The notes under the pieces are model-generated. The model saw only the letters and a program-made list of their open reading frames with translations. It did not search any database and was not told where the DNA came from. A program made the translations under genes and the position numbers. This document shows, in pieces, positions 473-5,595 of a DNA stretch of 5,595 nucleotides (its first letter is position 1; each line of letters begins with the position of its first letter). Source of the stretch: Propionibacteriaceae bacterium. Its GTDB lineage: Bacteria; Actinomycetota; Actinomycetes; Propionibacteriales; Propionibacteriaceae. The stretch spans positions 1 through 5,595 of the forward strand of contig JAGQUI010000203.1 in assembly GCA_020438595.1 (NCBI GenBank). The letters run 5' to 3'.

Positions 473-1369
473 ATGCCGACGCACGCTCCGGTGCACCCCG
501 ACCTGAAGGACTGGGTGCGCGAGGTCGCGGTCGTCCAGGACCCCCGCGTGATGGCGACGACACCGGTCGTCCCGCTGATCACCCGCGGCCTGCCCACCCG
601 TCCGGTCACCCCCGACCACTCGCAGGTCTACATCTGCGCGGGCGTGATCGTGAAGATCCACGGCGAGGGCACGGACGCGGGCCGGCTGCGCCGGCGGCTG
701 GCCTGCATCGGCGGCCCCGACATGGACCGGCTGTGGATCCAGCCGTTGCGGTACTCGCCGATCCCGGCTCCGGGCGACCGGCTGGCGACGGTGTGGCCGC
801 GGGTCACCGTGCTGTCGACCATCGACCAGCCGCCCTGGGCGGACACGGGACGGCTGCTGGCCAGACTGCACCGGATGCCCGTCCTCGACGACCCGCCCCG
901 CTTGGGCGGGCACTCGCGACTCGCGCGGGCGATCTCCTTCCTGCGCGGACGCGGCGACCTGGGCTGGCTGGCCGACCTCGGCGACATCTGGGCGGCCGAC
1001 CTCCGGCACGAGCGCCACACCACCCTCGCCCACGGCGACTTCCACCTCGGCCAGCTCGGCCACACCCCGCTGCGCCGCAGCTGGAAGCTGCTGGACACCG
1101 ACAACTTCGGCGTCGGCGACCCCGCGTGGGACCTCTCGGCCCCGGCCGGTTTCCACGCCGCCGGGCTGCTGGAGGAGAGCGCCTGGCAGACGTTCCTCGC
1201 CGCCTACCGCGAGGCGGAGGGCCCCGCCGTCCCCGCGGAGGGCGACCCCTGGCCCGTCCTCGCCACGCCCGCCCGGGCCGCGCTGCTGATCGCCGCCGCC
1301 CAGGCCGTCCGCGCGGACGCCACCGAGGTGTCCCGGACGCTGGTCGACGCCTGCGGGCGGCTCGCCTGA
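473..1369 (+). CDS. APH-family (aminoglycoside phosphotransferase-like) small-molecule kinase
   Basis: A 298-residue protein, the normal size for the protein-kinase-like APH superfamily, which transfers a phosphate from ATP to a hydroxyl of a small molecule. An N-lobe lysine in VIVKIHGEG (K61) is the probable ATP-contacting residue. A helix LLARLH (128-133) precedes the C-lobe. The catalytic loop is HGDFHLGQ (187-194), with D189 as catalytic base; the usual metal-binding Asn is Gln194. The metal/DFG-equivalent motif is LLDTDNFGVGDPAWDLS (206-222), with D208 or D210 as ligand and G215/D216/D220 conserved. A hydrophobic Ala-rich C-terminal helix follows. There is no signal peptide, so it is cytosolic. 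The HLGQ form of the loop also occurs in actinobacterial maltokinase-like proteins, so the substrate need not be an antibiotic. The gene starts at the ATG with the upstream GGGAGG and converges on the acetyltransferase gene, with palindrome R1 between them. Family is confident; substrate unknown. Confidence 0.88.
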   Translation: MPTHAPVHPDLKDWVREVAVVQDPRVMATTPVVPLITRGLPTRPVTPDHSQVYICAGVIVKIHGEGTDAGRLRRRLACIGGPDMDRLWIQPLRYSPIPAPGDRLATVWPRVTVLSTIDQPPWADTGRLLARLHRMPVLDDPPRLGGHSRLARAISFLRGRGDLGWLADLGDIWAADLRHERHTTLAHGDFHLGQLGHTPLRRSWKLLDTDNFGVGDPAWDLSAPAGFHAAGLLEESAWQTFLAAYREAEGPAVPAEGDPWPVLATPARAALLIAAAQAVRADATEVSRTLVDACGRLA

Positions 1370-1387: not shown

Positions 1388-1453
1388 GGACCGAGTAAGG
1401 AACCGTCCCCGACCCGGTCCGGACCAAGTTGGGGACGGTTCCTTACTCGGTCC
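1388..1453. repeat. R1: 66-bp palindrome with inverted GGAACCGTCCCC cores, convergent intergenic region
   Basis: The two halves, 1388-1420 and 1421-1453, meet with no spacer at GGTCC|GGACC. The outer 23 bp of the arms pair perfectly. Over all 33 positions there are 30 Watson-Crick pairs, one G·T and two mismatches (1414/1427, 1415/1426). Each arm holds the 12-nt core, GGAACCGTCCCC at 1399-1410 and its complement at 1431-1442. Each 33-nt half is also a weak hairpin by itself: GGACCGAGT at its edge pairs with ACCCGGTCC, 8 of 9. The element begins 18 nt after the APH stop and ends 36 nt before the acetyltransferase stop, so it is well placed as a bidirectional terminator. No T-run follows on either side. 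It is 61/66 identical to R2 at 2135-2200. Confidence 0.93.
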
Positions 1454-1458
1454 ACCCC

Positions 1459-1483
1459 GGGTCTCGACGGGCTCGACCAGTCG
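1459..1483. repeat. Candidate dispersed actinobacterial repeat, GGTCTCGACGGGCTCGACCA type
   Basis: Directly after R1 and before the acetyltransferase stop, GGGTCTCGACGGGCTCGACC begins at 1459, with GGTC...GACC ends and two TCGAC-like blocks. From memory, closely similar GGTYTCGAC-n-GGCTCRACCA strings are scattered through intergenic regions of many actinobacterial genomes. Only one copy is visible here, so the repeat status rests on recollection, not on this window. Confidence 0.35.
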
Positions 1484-1489
1484 CTCGAG

Positions 1490-2119
1490 TCAGCCCAGCC
1501 GCGCGAGCAGGCGCTCGCTCACCGCGGGCCAGTCCTCGGCGAGCACGCTGAACACGACGGTGTCGCGGAAGCTGCCGTCCTCGCGACGGGTGTGCCGGCG
1601 CAGGACGCCCTCGCGGGTGGCCCCCAGCGCGGCGATCGCGGCCACCGAGCGGGCGTTCACGGCGTCCGTCTGGATCTTCACCCGGCCGTAGCCGAGGTCC
1701 TCGAAACAGTGCCGCAGCAGCAGGTACTTGGTCTCCGGGTTCACCGGCGTGCCCCAGACCCGCGGGTGGTACAGCGTCCAGCCCAGGTGCAGCCGCTCGT
1801 GGGCGAGGTACGCCTCCCCGATCGACGTGGTGCCGACCACCTCACCGGCCGTGCCGAGCCCCGTGTCCCCGAGCAGCCGGACGGCGTACGCGATCCGTCC
1901 GCGGCCCTCGCCGTCGCACAGCGGCGGGTCGAGGTAGCGGACGCGGGCCATCTCCAGCGCCTCGTCGGCCGTGGTCGGCCGGTGGTGCATCACGTAGCCC
2001 TGGTGGTACACCGCCGGGTCGGCGAGGATGCCCGCCAGAGCCGGCAGGTCGGCCTCGACCACCGGACCGAGGCGCACGAACCTTCCGGACAACCAGGAGC
2101 CCTGCGGGAGTATCAGCAT
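1490..2119 (-). CDS. GNAT-family N-acetyltransferase, RimJ/RimL (Acetyltransf_3) type
   Basis: A 209-residue protein spanning one full GNAT domain; such enzymes move an acetyl group from acetyl-CoA to an amine on a protein N-terminus, antibiotic or small metabolite. The N-terminal part, SGRFVRLGPVVEADLPALAG (11-30), is the usual opening strand and helix of this subgroup. The beta4/acetyl-CoA region is HLGWTLYHPRVWGTPVNPE (111-129), where RVWGTP is a loose form of the R/Q-x-x-G-x-G/A pyrophosphate loop. Then come KYLLLRHCFEDLGYGRVKIQ (131-150) and the strongly diagnostic TDAVNARSVAAIAALGATREG (151-171). RDTVVFSVLAEDWP (185-198) is the typical C-terminal strand. No signal peptide or membrane segment is present. 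The ATG at 2119 has no Shine-Dalgarno sequence but sits 6 nt after a TACGAT box, suggesting leaderless translation. The gene is bracketed by R2 upstream and R1 downstream. Substrate unknown. Confidence 0.9.
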   Translation of the reverse strand: MLILPQGSWLSGRFVRLGPVVEADLPALAGILADPAVYHQGYVMHHRPTTADEALEMARVRYLDPPLCDGEGRGRIAYAVRLLGDTGLGTAGEVVGTTSIGEAYLAHERLHLGWTLYHPRVWGTPVNPETKYLLLRHCFEDLGYGRVKIQTDAVNARSVAAIAALGATREGVLRRHTRREDGSFRDTVVFSVLAEDWPAVSERLLARLG

Positions 2120-2125
2120 GCGGTC

Positions 2126-2131
2126 ATCGTA
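2126..2131 (-). promoter_or_regulatory. -10 element of a leaderless promoter for the acetyltransferase gene
   Basis: Read on the minus strand, TACGAT is followed by GACCGC and then the ATG at 2119. This TAnnnT-N6-ATG arrangement is the classic actinobacterial leaderless promoter, with transcription starting at or next to the A of ATG. No purine-rich RBS is present. At 17-nt spacing the -35 position (2149-2154, GACGGT) is poor and lies inside palindrome R2, so the palindrome overlaps the promoter. Confidence 0.5.
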
Positions 2132-2134
2132 GGT

Positions 2135-2200
2135 GGACCGAGTAAGGAACCGTCCCCAACTCGGTCCGGACCGGGTTGGGGACGGTTCCTGACTCGGTCC
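2135..2200. repeat. R2: 66-bp palindrome with inverted GGAACCGTCCCC cores, between ABC permease and GNAT gene
   Basis: It has the same design and length as R1. Halves 2135-2167 and 2168-2200 meet at GGTCC|GGACC, and the arms pair at 31 of 33 positions plus one G·T; the only mismatch is A2144/G2191. The cores lie at 2146-2157 and 2178-2189. Each 33-nt half folds on itself: GGACCGAGT at 2135-2143 pairs perfectly with ACTCGGTCC at 2159-2167, placing the core in the loop. It starts 9 nt past the permease stop and ends 15 nt before the acetyltransferase ATG. It could therefore end the ABC operon transcript while also forming the upstream part of the next promoter. It differs from R1 at five positions. 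Confidence 0.93.
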
Positions 2201-2209
2201 GCCCGGCCG

Positions 2210-4639
2210 TCAGATGTCGGCCAGCGCCTCGGTCGGGGCCGCCTTCGCCGCCCGCCGTCCGGGCAGCACGGACGCCAGCGCCGCGGCCAGCACCGCCACC
2301 GCCACCATGCCGGTGGTCATGGGGAGGTCCACCGCGAACCGGATGCTGTCGAACCCGCTGGTGCGGCCCAGCGACGTCACCGCCAGCCAGCCGAAGAAGG
2401 TGCCGGCCACGAGGCCCACCGCGATCCCCACCACGGCCACCTGGACCGCCTCGATCAGCAGCATCACCCGCAGCGAACGCGCCTGCAGGCCCAGCGCCCG
2501 CAGCAGCGCCGACTCCCGCGTCCGCTCCATCACCGAAAGGCCGAGCGTGTTGCTCACCCCGATCAGGGCGATCAGCACCGCCACGCCGAGCAGCCCGGTG
2601 GTGATGGCCAGCAGGATGTTCAGCACCTGCTCGTACAGCGCCGCCTGCACGATCGTCCCGCTCACCCGGTCTCCGGAGCCGGTGATCTGGTTCACCGCCA
2701 CCATCACGTCGATGGCACGCCCCCGGTCGGGCACCGAGAGCCACATCACGGCGTGGGGCACCGGCTTCACGATCCTGGTGAGGGTGGCCGCCGACACCAT
2801 CGCCTGCTCGTAGCTGACCAGCCGGGAGCCGAGCACCCTCAGTTCGACGCTGCCGACAGCCCCCTTCACGGTGACGGTCGCCGGCATGCCCTCGACCTGG
2901 TAGTCGCTGACCAGCACGACGTCGTCCGGAACCGCCGTGGTGACCCCGGTCACCGCGGGGATGGCCGGGTCGTAGCCGAGCAGCACGACCCCGTCGTCAC
3001 CGATCCGGGCGTTGCCGCCGGACAGCAGCACGGACGCGTCCACGCCGGACACCCTCGCCAGTTCGTCCGAGGTCTCCGCCGGGATCCGCGCGGGATCGCC
3101 GTCGTCGTCCGTCCACTGCACCTGCAGGTCGACCGGGTAGTGCGCGGCCAGCTCGTCCAGCACGGTGAGCCGGACGGACGCCGTGGACACCTGCAGTGTG
3201 ACCATCAGCCCGACCGCCAGCATCAGGGCGGTCGCCGTGGCCGTCGCCCGGCGCGGGTTGCGTTCGGCGTTGTCAGCGGCCAGTCGCGGGACGGCGCCGG
3301 TCCAGCGGAACGCCCGTCCGGACGCCTTCAGCAGCGCGGGCACGAACAGGGGTCCGCCGAACAGGACCCCGATCGAGAGCAGCGCGCCGGCTCCGATCGC
3401 GATCAGCAAGGCGTTCGGGTCGGTACGGACGACGGCGAGCACAGCCAGCCCCGCCCCGGCCAGCAGGAACAGCCCGCAGGCGACCGCCCGCACCAGGGAT
3501 GCGCGCCGCCGCTCGTCACTCTCCGGCACCGGCTGCAGCGCCTCCAGCGGCGCGACCCGGGTGCCCCGGAGGATCGGCACGAAGGCGGCCACCACGGTCG
3601 CGAGCACCCCGAGGCCGAACGCGATCGCCAGTTGCTGCCACGGCAGGACCAGCCCCCAGAACAGCGCCGTGCTCCAGGCGCTGACCCCTGCGGCGAGCCC
3701 GATGCCGACGACCAGCCCGAGCAGCGCTCCGAGCACACCGAGCAGGACGGCCTCGACCAGGAAGCGCCGCCGCACCTGGGCCCCGGACGCCCCGACGGCG
3801 CGCAGCAGGCCGATCTGCCGGCGCCGCTGCGCGAGCGTGATCGTGAAGGTGTTGGCGATCGTGATCATGCCGACGATCAGGGCCACCCCGGCGAATCCCC
3901 ACAGCACGTTGGCGAAGGCGTCGAAGCCCTCGGCCAGCTCCGCGATCGCCGCGGCGCGCACCTCGGCTGCGGAAGTGGCCCTCAGGTCCGGGCCGAGGGT
4001 CTTGAGTCGCACGTTCAGGTCGTCGACGAGCGCGTCCGCGGACACCCCGGGCGCGGCCCTGACCGCCCACTGCGGGGCGTGGTCGGTGGTGTGCCCGGCC
4101 GCGGCGAAGGCGGCGTCCGAGGCGTACCCGGTCTTCACGAACAGCCCGCTGGGCTCGTTGGTGACACCCACGACGGTCATCGCGAGGTCGCGCCCGGACA
4201 GGGTGAGCTCGTCGCCGACGCCCCGTCCGAGGGCTCGCGCGGCCCCGCCGGAGAGCGCCACCTCGTTCGCCGCGGACGGCCAGCGTCCGGCGGTCAGGGA
4301 CGCCCAGCGCAGGCCGTCCGGCGGCACGTTCACGAAGTCGATCCACTCGGAGGTGACCCCGGCGGTGACCGCCTCCGACATGGTGAGGACGGGGGCCGAG
4401 ACCGCGACGCCGGGGACGGAGGCGATCGCCTTGCCGACCCCGTCGGTCCCGGACCCGTCGGTGACCACGGCGTCCGCCTCGGCGAGCGAGACGTTCATGG
4501 CCTTGCCCTGCGCCTGGCCCTCGGTGGCGACCAGCACCGCCGAGCCGGCCAGGAACGCCACCGAGATCGCGATGGCGATGATCGTGGAGAGGAACCGTCC
4601 GGGGTGGTGCCGCACCTCGGACCAGGCCTGGCGCAGCAT
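2210..4639 (-). CDS. ABC transporter permease with two FtsX domains (MacB-like, type VII)
   Basis: An 809-residue membrane subunit of an ABC exporter. Hydrophobic segments at about 17-39, 244-268, 295-318, 335-356, 383-403, 410-435, 465-486, 672-697, 724-750 and 775-794 give ten TM helices in two related halves. Large extracytoplasmic domains lie at about 40-243 and 487-671. Each half ends in an FtsX domain with the characteristic coupling segment, QRRRQIGLLRAVGASGAQVR (271-290) and ERTRESALLRALGLQARSLR (705-724), each followed by a Gly-rich helix. The N-terminal RHHPGRFLST is the usual cytosolic lead-in. Transporters of this class couple ATP hydrolysis to mechanical movement of the outer domains and export peptides, lipids or antibiotics, or sense them. 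Length and layout fit the fused actinobacterial permeases of roughly 800-850 residues. The start overlaps the ATPase stop by one base (TGATG), implying translational coupling. No frameshift or missing segment is seen. Substrate unknown. Confidence 0.92.
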   Translation of the reverse strand: MLRQAWSEVRHHPGRFLSTIIAIAISVAFLAGSAVLVATEGQAQGKAMNVSLAEADAVVTDGSGTDGVGKAIASVPGVAVSAPVLTMSEAVTAGVTSEWIDFVNVPPDGLRWASLTAGRWPSAANEVALSGGAARALGRGVGDELTLSGRDLAMTVVGVTNEPSGLFVKTGYASDAAFAAAGHTTDHAPQWAVRAAPGVSADALVDDLNVRLKTLGPDLRATSAAEVRAAAIAELAEGFDAFANVLWGFAGVALIVGMITIANTFTITLAQRRRQIGLLRAVGASGAQVRRRFLVEAVLLGVLGALLGLVVGIGLAAGVSAWSTALFWGLVLPWQQLAIAFGLGVLATVVAAFVPILRGTRVAPLEALQPVPESDERRRASLVRAVACGLFLLAGAGLAVLAVVRTDPNALLIAIGAGALLSIGVLFGGPLFVPALLKASGRAFRWTGAVPRLAADNAERNPRRATATATALMLAVGLMVTLQVSTASVRLTVLDELAAHYPVDLQVQWTDDDGDPARIPAETSDELARVSGVDASVLLSGGNARIGDDGVVLLGYDPAIPAVTGVTTAVPDDVVLVSDYQVEGMPATVTVKGAVGSVELRVLGSRLVSYEQAMVSAATLTRIVKPVPHAVMWLSVPDRGRAIDVMVAVNQITGSGDRVSGTIVQAALYEQVLNILLAITTGLLGVAVLIALIGVSNTLGLSVMERTRESALLRALGLQARSLRVMLLIEAVQVAVVGIAVGLVAGTFFGWLAVTSLGRTSGFDSIRFAVDLPMTTGMVAVAVLAAALASVLPGRRAAKAAPTEALADI

Positions 4640-5388
4640 CAGGCGCCCAGCTTCTTCATCGCGGCGAGCACCATGTCGGCGGTGGGGGCGACCAGATCGT
4701 CGACGAGGTGGCCGTCCGACAGCAGCACGGTGCGGTCGGCGTAGCCGGCGGCGTTGGGGTCGTGGGTGACCATCACGATCGTCTGCTCCAGCACCTGGCT
4801 GGTGTGCCGCAGGTAGTTCAGCAACTGGTGGCTGGAGGCCGAGTCGAGGGCGCCGGTGGGCTCGTCGGCGAACACCACGTCCGGCTGGGTGATCAGGGCG
4901 CGGGCGATCGCGACCCGCTGCTGCTGGCCGCCGGACAGCTGGGACGGCAGGTGCGTGAGCCGGTCGCCCAGGCGCAGCGACTCGACGATCCCGTCGAACC
5001 GGTCGCGGTCGACGCGGCGTCCGGCGAGGTCGAGGGGCAGCACGATGTTCTGCTCCGCGGTGAGCGTGGGCAGCAGGTTGAACGCCTGGAAGATGAAGCC
5101 GACCCGGTCGCGGCGGACGGCGGTGAGCTCGCGGTCGGAGAGCTGCGAGATCGCCTGGCCGCCGAGGACGACCTCGCCGGAGGTGGCCCGGTCAAGCCCG
5201 GCCAGGCAGTGCATCAGGGTGGACTTGCCGGAGCCCGAGGGGCCCATCACCGCGGTGAAGGAGCCGCGGGAGAAGCCGATGGTGACGCCCGCCAGCGCGT
5301 GCACCTCCGCCTCCCCGGAGCCGTAGGTCTTGGTCAGGTCGGTCGCCGCGGCGATCTGGTCGGTGGGCGCAGGGGCAGTCGTCGTCAT
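4639..5388 (-). CDS. ABC transporter ATP-binding protein (MacB/LolD-type)
   Basis: The cytosolic ATPase that powers the adjacent FtsX-type permease. It has 249 residues from the ATG at 5388, a normal length for the LolD/MacB ATPase group. All nucleotide-binding motifs are intact: aromatic A-loop Y22, Walker A GPSGSGKS (49-56, K55), Q-loop Q101 in [13 protein letters not shown], signature LSGGQQQR (151-158), Walker B VVFADEP (171-177, E176 catalytic), D-loop GALD (179-182) and switch H209 in [17 protein letters not shown] and ADEPTGALD are typical of this subfamily. I prefer the ATG at 5388 because AAGGTG sits just upstream of it. An in-frame GTG at 5403 would add five residues but has no RBS and overlaps a candidate -10 box. 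It is the first gene of a two-gene minus-strand operon with the permease. No two-component regulator genes lie in this window, although such partners are common for this family. Confidence 0.93.
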
Positions 5389-5391
5389 GGT

Positions 5392-5397
5392 CACCTT
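5392..5397 (-). promoter_or_regulatory. Shine-Dalgarno sequence choosing the ATG at 5388 for the ATPase
   Basis: On the minus strand AAGGTG is followed by ACC and ATG (5388). The 3-nt gap is short, but it is the only purine-rich site near either candidate start. The GTG at 5403 is preceded by CCCCTTCTAGC, which has no RBS character. Confidence 0.45.
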
Positions 5398-5401
5398 GGT
5401 C

Positions 5402-5407
5402 ACGCTA
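5402..5407 (-). promoter_or_regulatory. Candidate -10 box for the ABC operon
   Basis: TAGCGT (minus strand, 5407 to 5402) matches TAnnnT. Transcription would begin near 5396, leaving a leader of about 8-9 nt before the ATG at 5388 and excluding the GTG at 5403. No good -35 is visible at 16-18 nt. A second TAGCGT occurs at 5475 to 5470 and is an alternative that would give a leader of about 75 nt. Confidence 0.28.
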
Positions 5408-5469: not shown

Positions 5470-5509
5470 ACGCTATGCGCCGCCCCCAACCACCAGCCCG
5501 CCTCGAATC

Positions 5510-5595
5510 GGGGACGGTTCCTTTCCGGTTCGCAAGAACCGTCCCCATTCCAGTTCGCGGGGACGGTTCCTTTCCGGTTCGTGGGGACGGTTCCT
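5510..5595. repeat. Array of GGGGACGGTTCC cores with about 24-nt period, running off the right edge
   Basis: Cores lie at 5510-5521, 5535-5546 (inverted, one mismatch: AGAACCGTCCCC), 5559-5570 and 5583-5594, at steps of 25, 24 and 24 nt. Between them stand three direct tails: TTTCCGGTTCG at 5522 and 5571, and ATTCCAGTTCG at 5547. The inverted core can pair with either neighbour over 11 bp: 5510-5520 with 5536-5546 (15-nt loop), or 5536-5546 with 5559-5569 (12-nt loop). These are mutually exclusive hairpins. The core is the one in R1 and R2, but the tails belong to a different type. The array continues beyond the window, so its full size is unknown. Confidence 0.9.

Follow-up and report, generated by a model that had tools for sequence, protein, structure and literature searches.

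The window, by which we mean the whole 5,595-nt stretch of DNA that was analysed, carries on its minus strand genes for an ABC transporter ATPase, an FtsX-type permease and a GNAT acetyltransferase, in that order, followed by a convergent gene for an APH-like protein. The nearest named relatives of the encoded proteins are from Propionicimonas, other Propionibacteriaceae or Propionibacteriales. Two palindromes, R1 and R2, stand on either side of the GNAT gene. The features of the window are as follows:

473..1369, plus strand: APH-like phosphotransferase-fold protein (PF01636), the second syntenic anchor, with its start codon picked by eye inside the longer ORF 305-1369
1388-1453: R1, a REP doublet made of units 1388-1420 and 1421-1453, in the gap where the GNAT and APH-like genes converge
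1490..2119, minus strand: GNAT acetyltransferase (PF13302, 6.1e-16), the bracketed gene
2126..2131, minus strand: -10-like hexamer TACGAT, separated by 6 nt from the GNAT ATG, found by eye
2135-2200: R2, a REP doublet (units 2135-2167 and 2168-2200) after the permease stop and before the GNAT start
2210..4639, minus strand: FtsX/MacB-type ABC permease, a syntenic anchor
4639..5403, minus strand: ABC transporter ATPase
5509..5595: three more REP-core copies with other stem arms, found by eye and running into the contig end

An earlier note on this DNA had described two near-identical palindromes, 36 nt from the GNAT stop and 15 nt from its start, and the description holds: R1 and R2 are each 66 bp long and identical at 61/66 positions in direct register, with spacers of 36 nt on the R1 side (1454-1489) and 15 nt on the R2 side (2120-2134). 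R1 matches the reverse complement of R2 at 63/66 positions. The match is 71/76 once the outer flanks are included, and the two elements are opposite to each other in orientation. Each is also close to a perfect palindrome (self-palindromy of 60/66 for R1 and 62/66 for R2). Both 66-mers consist of two inverted 33-nt REP units placed tail to tail, forming a doublet of the REPIN/BIME type in which the unit follows the pattern GGACCGAGT..GGAACCGTCCCC..CGGTCC. The predicted RNA folds of both strands of R1 and R2 have energies of about -57 to -61 kcal/mol (z of -9.2 to -10.2), and in each of the four cases (two elements by two strands) no shuffle out of 200 reached an equally stable fold. Folding of single units covered two of the four in the window: unit 2135-2167 alone forms a hairpin (-17.4 kcal/mol, z = -4.6) whose stem is interrupted by an AA/CCA bulge and whose loop is ACCG, and the left unit of R1 (1388-1420) folds weakly (z = -1.8). 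A search of the whole window against Rfam at gathering scores gave no match. At the right contig end, the core GGGACGGTTCC starts at 5511, 5560 and 5584; the contig stops within this REP-core array, which probably caused the assembly to break there.

Among the best 80 of 412 permease matches, the closest relative is an HGW-Actinobacteria-5 MAG (G001; permease identity 80%), which contains 242 exact copies of the core GGAACCGTCCCC. There are 300 copies in G005, 187 in G003 and 158 in G011, and the reversed pattern, used as a control in the 20 genomes first searched, occurs 0-1 times per genome. Across a family sample of 147 genomes, 17 contain 15-300 cores and the other 130 contain 0-8 (reversed-pattern control, 0-3 per genome, with the maximum in G051). 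Each of 118 further genomes sampled from the phylum has 0-5 cores despite the presence of a PF01797 gene in 36 of them, indicating that the core is lineage-specific within this phylum sample. With the whole of R2 as query, G001 gave 111 matches and G011 gave 138, counts that take in both strands of the palindrome and overlapping copies, with 40 first-look candidates scored per genome. In 1.8 Mb of four relatives, 235 of the 264 cores counted are intergenic (30-nt margin). The 66 cores in the G001 stretches include 23 with GGACC arms and 35 with GAACGG arms; a strict pattern picks out four flush doublets of the GGACC type there, and single units are also present.

Core-rich genomes commonly carry a RAYT gene. 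PF01797 matched in 11 of the 17 family-sample genomes with at least 15 cores, as compared with 1 of the other 130 (Fisher P = 1.2e-11), namely G045, which has just 2 cores. Among the 20 genomes first searched, 11 have a PF01797 match, each with at least 21 cores, and those with no match are Micropruina G013 (43 cores) and G018 (49 cores) and seven others with 0-2 cores. The six core-rich family genomes with no PF01797 match are G013, G018, G067, G110, G115 and G122, and incomplete MAGs may account for part of this. G018, apparently an isolate genome, may hold a REP family whose RAYT was lost.

We examined the RAYTs at 17 loci. All 17 proteins match PF01797 above the cut-off, and by regular expression each has an HUH motif and all but one, L094, a YxWxNP-type Tyr motif (16 of 17), as in a Y1_Tnp domain with HUH and a catalytic tyrosine. 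For the two RAYTs searched against NCBIfam, REP_Tyr_transpos (NF047646) was the sole family to match at an E-value of 0.001, with 70.9 and 66.4 bits, below its curated cut-off of 80. A phmmer search of PDB sequences with the L093 RAYT gave no match at an E-value of 0.001. L093 lies in G001, where it is the cognate RAYT of this unit type: units with the same GGACC arms and core as R1 and R2 lie on both sides of it, in inverted orientation. Another G001 RAYT, L096, is flanked by REPs with GAACGG arms. In G011, which has many R2-query matches, neither of the two RAYTs is flanked by the exact R1/R2 type. The motif GTCCCC occurs no more than 330 nt downstream of the RAYT gene at all 17 loci. In total, the downstream flanks contain 41 GTCCCC and 2 GGGGAC, and the upstream flanks 28 GGGGAC and 8 GTCCCC, a strong bias in orientation; shuffled sequences would give about 15 altogether. 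Start codons were guessed for this count, and the upstream side of L090 ends at a contig edge. The stem arms vary from one RAYT to another.

These repeats resemble REPINs/BIMEs and their RAYTs, as presented in the sections considered here of Bertels and Rainey (2011, PMC3116915) and Nunvar et al. (2010, PMC2817692), in being high-copy intergenic REPs, in forming inverted doublets with long hairpins, in having several unit types per genome, and in that RAYT genes are flanked by their own REPs. They differ in that the two units meet without a spacer, for a total of 66 bp, in the near-loop GTCCCC shared at 17 RAYT loci, and in belonging to an actinobacterial host genus. The mobile unit of REPs is described as the inverted doublet in that part of Bertels and Rainey (2011, PMC3116915). 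The text considered of PMC3733652 likewise describes short tagged palindromes (GTAG- or CGTC-tagged REPs), dimers and repeat-flanked RAYT genes, and the GTCCCC-core type is absent from that portion. According to the sections considered of PMC6006769, on TnpA-REP subclasses with GT[AG]G-footed REPs, each tnpA-REP gene has its own REP family and several may share a genome, as is the case in G001. The word Actinobacteria does not occur in the text of PMC3733652, PMC6006769, PMC3116915 and PMC8266576. Literature searches under the older phylum name found nothing that joins REP sequences, TnpAREP or RAYT with Actinobacteria, and a search with the core string returned only unrelated titles.

In the portion considered of PMC8266576, a RAYT reads the foot tetranucleotide and the bulge of folded single-stranded REP DNA. 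The foot of the E. coli REP in that paper is GTAG; in the G001 stretches, 14 of 16 units of the R1/R2 type carry GT directly before GGACC, which gives a GTGG foot (each half of a doublet counting as one unit). In both cases a mismatch bulge interrupts the stem, AA-GC in E. coli and AA opposite CCA here (in the fold of 2135-2167); stem and loop sequences differ. The GTGG foot is present in two of the four window units, in none of the 21 units of this type listed for G011, most of them in tandem, and in 11 of 25 units at the remaining loci, some copies being repeated among loci. By analogy, the foot and the bulge would fit RAYT recognition in part, and RAYT activity on these repeats is presumed.

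We compared the locus among relatives using a permease alignment scan, which confirmed 412 matches, the best 80 of them giving 79 loci; a scan of the relatives' contigs with the single permease protein gave no match. A GNAT gene is present in 8 of 30 genus genomes. It adjoins the permease gene in G001, G002, G011 and G147, that is, in 4 of the 24 permease-bearing genus genomes, and lies at other sites in G012, G014, G115 and G157. This patchy distribution would suit a GNAT gene carried along between two copies of the palindrome in the manner of a composite element, as the earlier note had considered, and so would the inverted arrangement of R1 and R2, which is like that of REPs around RAYT genes. 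However, G011 and G147 carry the GNAT gene at the same place with neither palindrome, and G002 carries it there without R2, indicating that the place of the GNAT gene is independent of the palindromes. From the permease stop to the GNAT start there are 20 nt in G011 and 18 nt in G147, free of repeats, with TGACGGCC-TAGCATGACGGCCATG in G147 as compared with TGACGGCC-GGGC-R2-ACC-TACGATGACCGCATG in the window. Of the four loci with the GNAT gene next to the permease gene, only that of G001 has an R2-type doublet at the same point; the G001 contig extends ~260 bp beyond the GNAT gene, a stretch in which REPs of another arm type and no R1 were seen. The arms and core of the palindrome behind the GNAT gene in G002 are those found around the G002 RAYT L084, suggesting that a different repeat type invaded this gap. 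In addition, flanks of up to 1.5 kb around the four GNAT copies at other sites contain no core, which is also contrary to movement as cargo.

The earlier note had proposed looking in relatives for a GNAT-less site that keeps one palindrome. Cores are present in the gap after the permease gene at 3 of 20 GNAT-less loci (G005, G067 and G129), one of the 20 (G158) showing 172 bases of that gap, and these three resemble an empty site that has kept its repeat. Their arms, however, are of types other than GGACC, and we take them to be separate insertions for that reason. We saw no target-site duplication by eye at the outer borders of R1 and R2; this is weak evidence, since IS200/IS605-type elements are not known to make any. 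Relatives that carry the GNAT gene here and neither palindrome are a contrary finding that the earlier note had itself named; with them the idea of a special palindrome-gene-palindrome block loses its footing, and we consider transport of the GNAT gene as a passenger very improbable.

Bracketing of genes by repeat copies was assessed in ~1.8 Mb of G001, G003, G005 and G011, comprising 1410 genes and 835 available gaps, with home-made gene calls, the exact 11-mer core and selected stretches. Contigs of G001 and G011 were taken because they hold copies, a RAYT or the locus, and G003:C3, G005:C30 and G005:C29 because they are large and contain the locus or a RAYT, a choice that enriches the set for RAYT genes. 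Cores occupy 96 of the 835 gaps, and convergent gaps (27/138) more often than divergent gaps (15/228; P = 3e-4). Eleven of the 1410 genes are bracketed, as compared with 9.4 under a stratified null (sd 2.7, P = 0.34). Four of these are RAYT genes, out of six RAYTs in the set (Fisher P = 3e-8), and the remaining seven show no excess (P = 0.86). The repeats' own transposase is the one gene type seen to be bracketed beyond expectation. The earlier note had asked whether paired copies often bracket single genes; in the sampled stretches they show no such tendency outside RAYT genes, and this, too, speaks against a passenger. An earlier pooled test that included RAYT genes had given P = 0.046, and for G003 alone 3 bracketed genes as compared with 0.63 expected (P = 0.017), one of them the RAYT gene. 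We prefer the stratified rerun, which used RAYT coordinates from the PF01797 loci, because the pooled test shuffled across genomes of unequal density and missed the G003 RAYT by its motif rule.

The preference for convergent gaps, of which the R1 gap is one, also bears on a model in which R1 and R2 are retained for their strong hairpins, which would stop transcription at the end of the permease gene and hold the GNAT and APH transcripts apart. Their hairpins are very stable, and R2 directly follows the permease stop and precedes the -10-like hexamer, positions that would suit such a function. Nevertheless, a scan of the window for Rho-independent terminators (a G+C-rich hairpin followed by a T run) found none, G011 and G147 keep the gene order with short permease-GNAT gaps that contain no repeat, and neutral tolerance would equally produce the convergent preference. 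A terminator-insulated GNAT gene, the other function the note had considered, is in our view unlikely. Hexamers 6-7 nt 5' of the GNAT ATG, identified by eye, read TACGAT in G001, TAGCAT in G147 and TAGGAT in G011. In the window, TACGAT looks like the -10 element of a leaderless transcript and would be a putative promoter element untouched by R2, whose edge is 3 nt away; a side effect of the hairpin on transcripts is possible, with R2 so near to TACGAT.

The palindrome-free GNAT loci of G011 and G147 and the absence of a bracketing excess support the reading of coincidence that the earlier note had listed. Thus, the bracket is most likely made of separate copies on either side of an existing gene, with no gene-moving or insulating device. 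R1 and R2 are very probably independent copies of a REPIN/BIME-type element that a RAYT spread and that settled in tolerant gaps around the GNAT gene. Doublets of the R1/R2 type would have spread through Propionicimonas-like genomes, most likely through the trans action on single-stranded DNA of a RAYT that the source organism would possess now or have possessed formerly. By analogy with published RAYTs, the enzyme would recognise the folded single-stranded REP by its foot tetranucleotide and bulge, and the inverted doublet would again be the mobile unit. R2 would have entered the permease-GNAT gap in the lineage common to G001, after the GNAT gene was already in place, and R1 would have entered the GNAT-APH gap in a separate event, R2 being likely the older of the two. 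Both would flank the GNAT gene because copies survive in intergenic gaps, and in convergent ones most. The attractive but misleading idea of a gene cassette flanked by palindromes is in this way replaced by an ordinary cause, and a REP/RAYT system is added for an actinobacterial family.

The variation in stem arms raises the further, rather doubtful, possibility that RAYT-REP pairs have radiated in Propionicimonas-like genomes, with the near-loop GTCCCC kept and the arms (GGACC, GAACGG, GGACGG, GGCGG and others) private to each RAYT. RAYT specificity would then consist of co-diverging stems around a fixed cleavage/recognition element, and two or more RAYT-REP pairs would coexist within one genome. 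A genus with several RAYTs, each with REP arms of its own, would lend itself to work on RAYT-REP recognition.

Other repeats and genes were observed at or near the locus. The window contains a separate 46-bp palindrome (CAAAGTGGCCAGTATCGGCCG...) at 301-346, behind the first, truncated gene. We considered this palindrome as a REP of core-less RAYTs and rejected it, its exact 9-mer being present at none of the 17 RAYT loci; a strict pattern of the palindrome was found in none of 12 relatives. The gene content between the permease and APH anchors is variable. A small zinc-ribbon-like ORF, not found in the window, lies between the GNAT and APH genes in G002, G011 and G147, and between the permease and APH genes in G008 and G009. 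In G003, the gap between the permease and APH genes (L003 10436-10640) holds a different array (GTTGGCTGAGCTTGTCGAAGCCTCAGCGACCC...), apparently of another repeat family.
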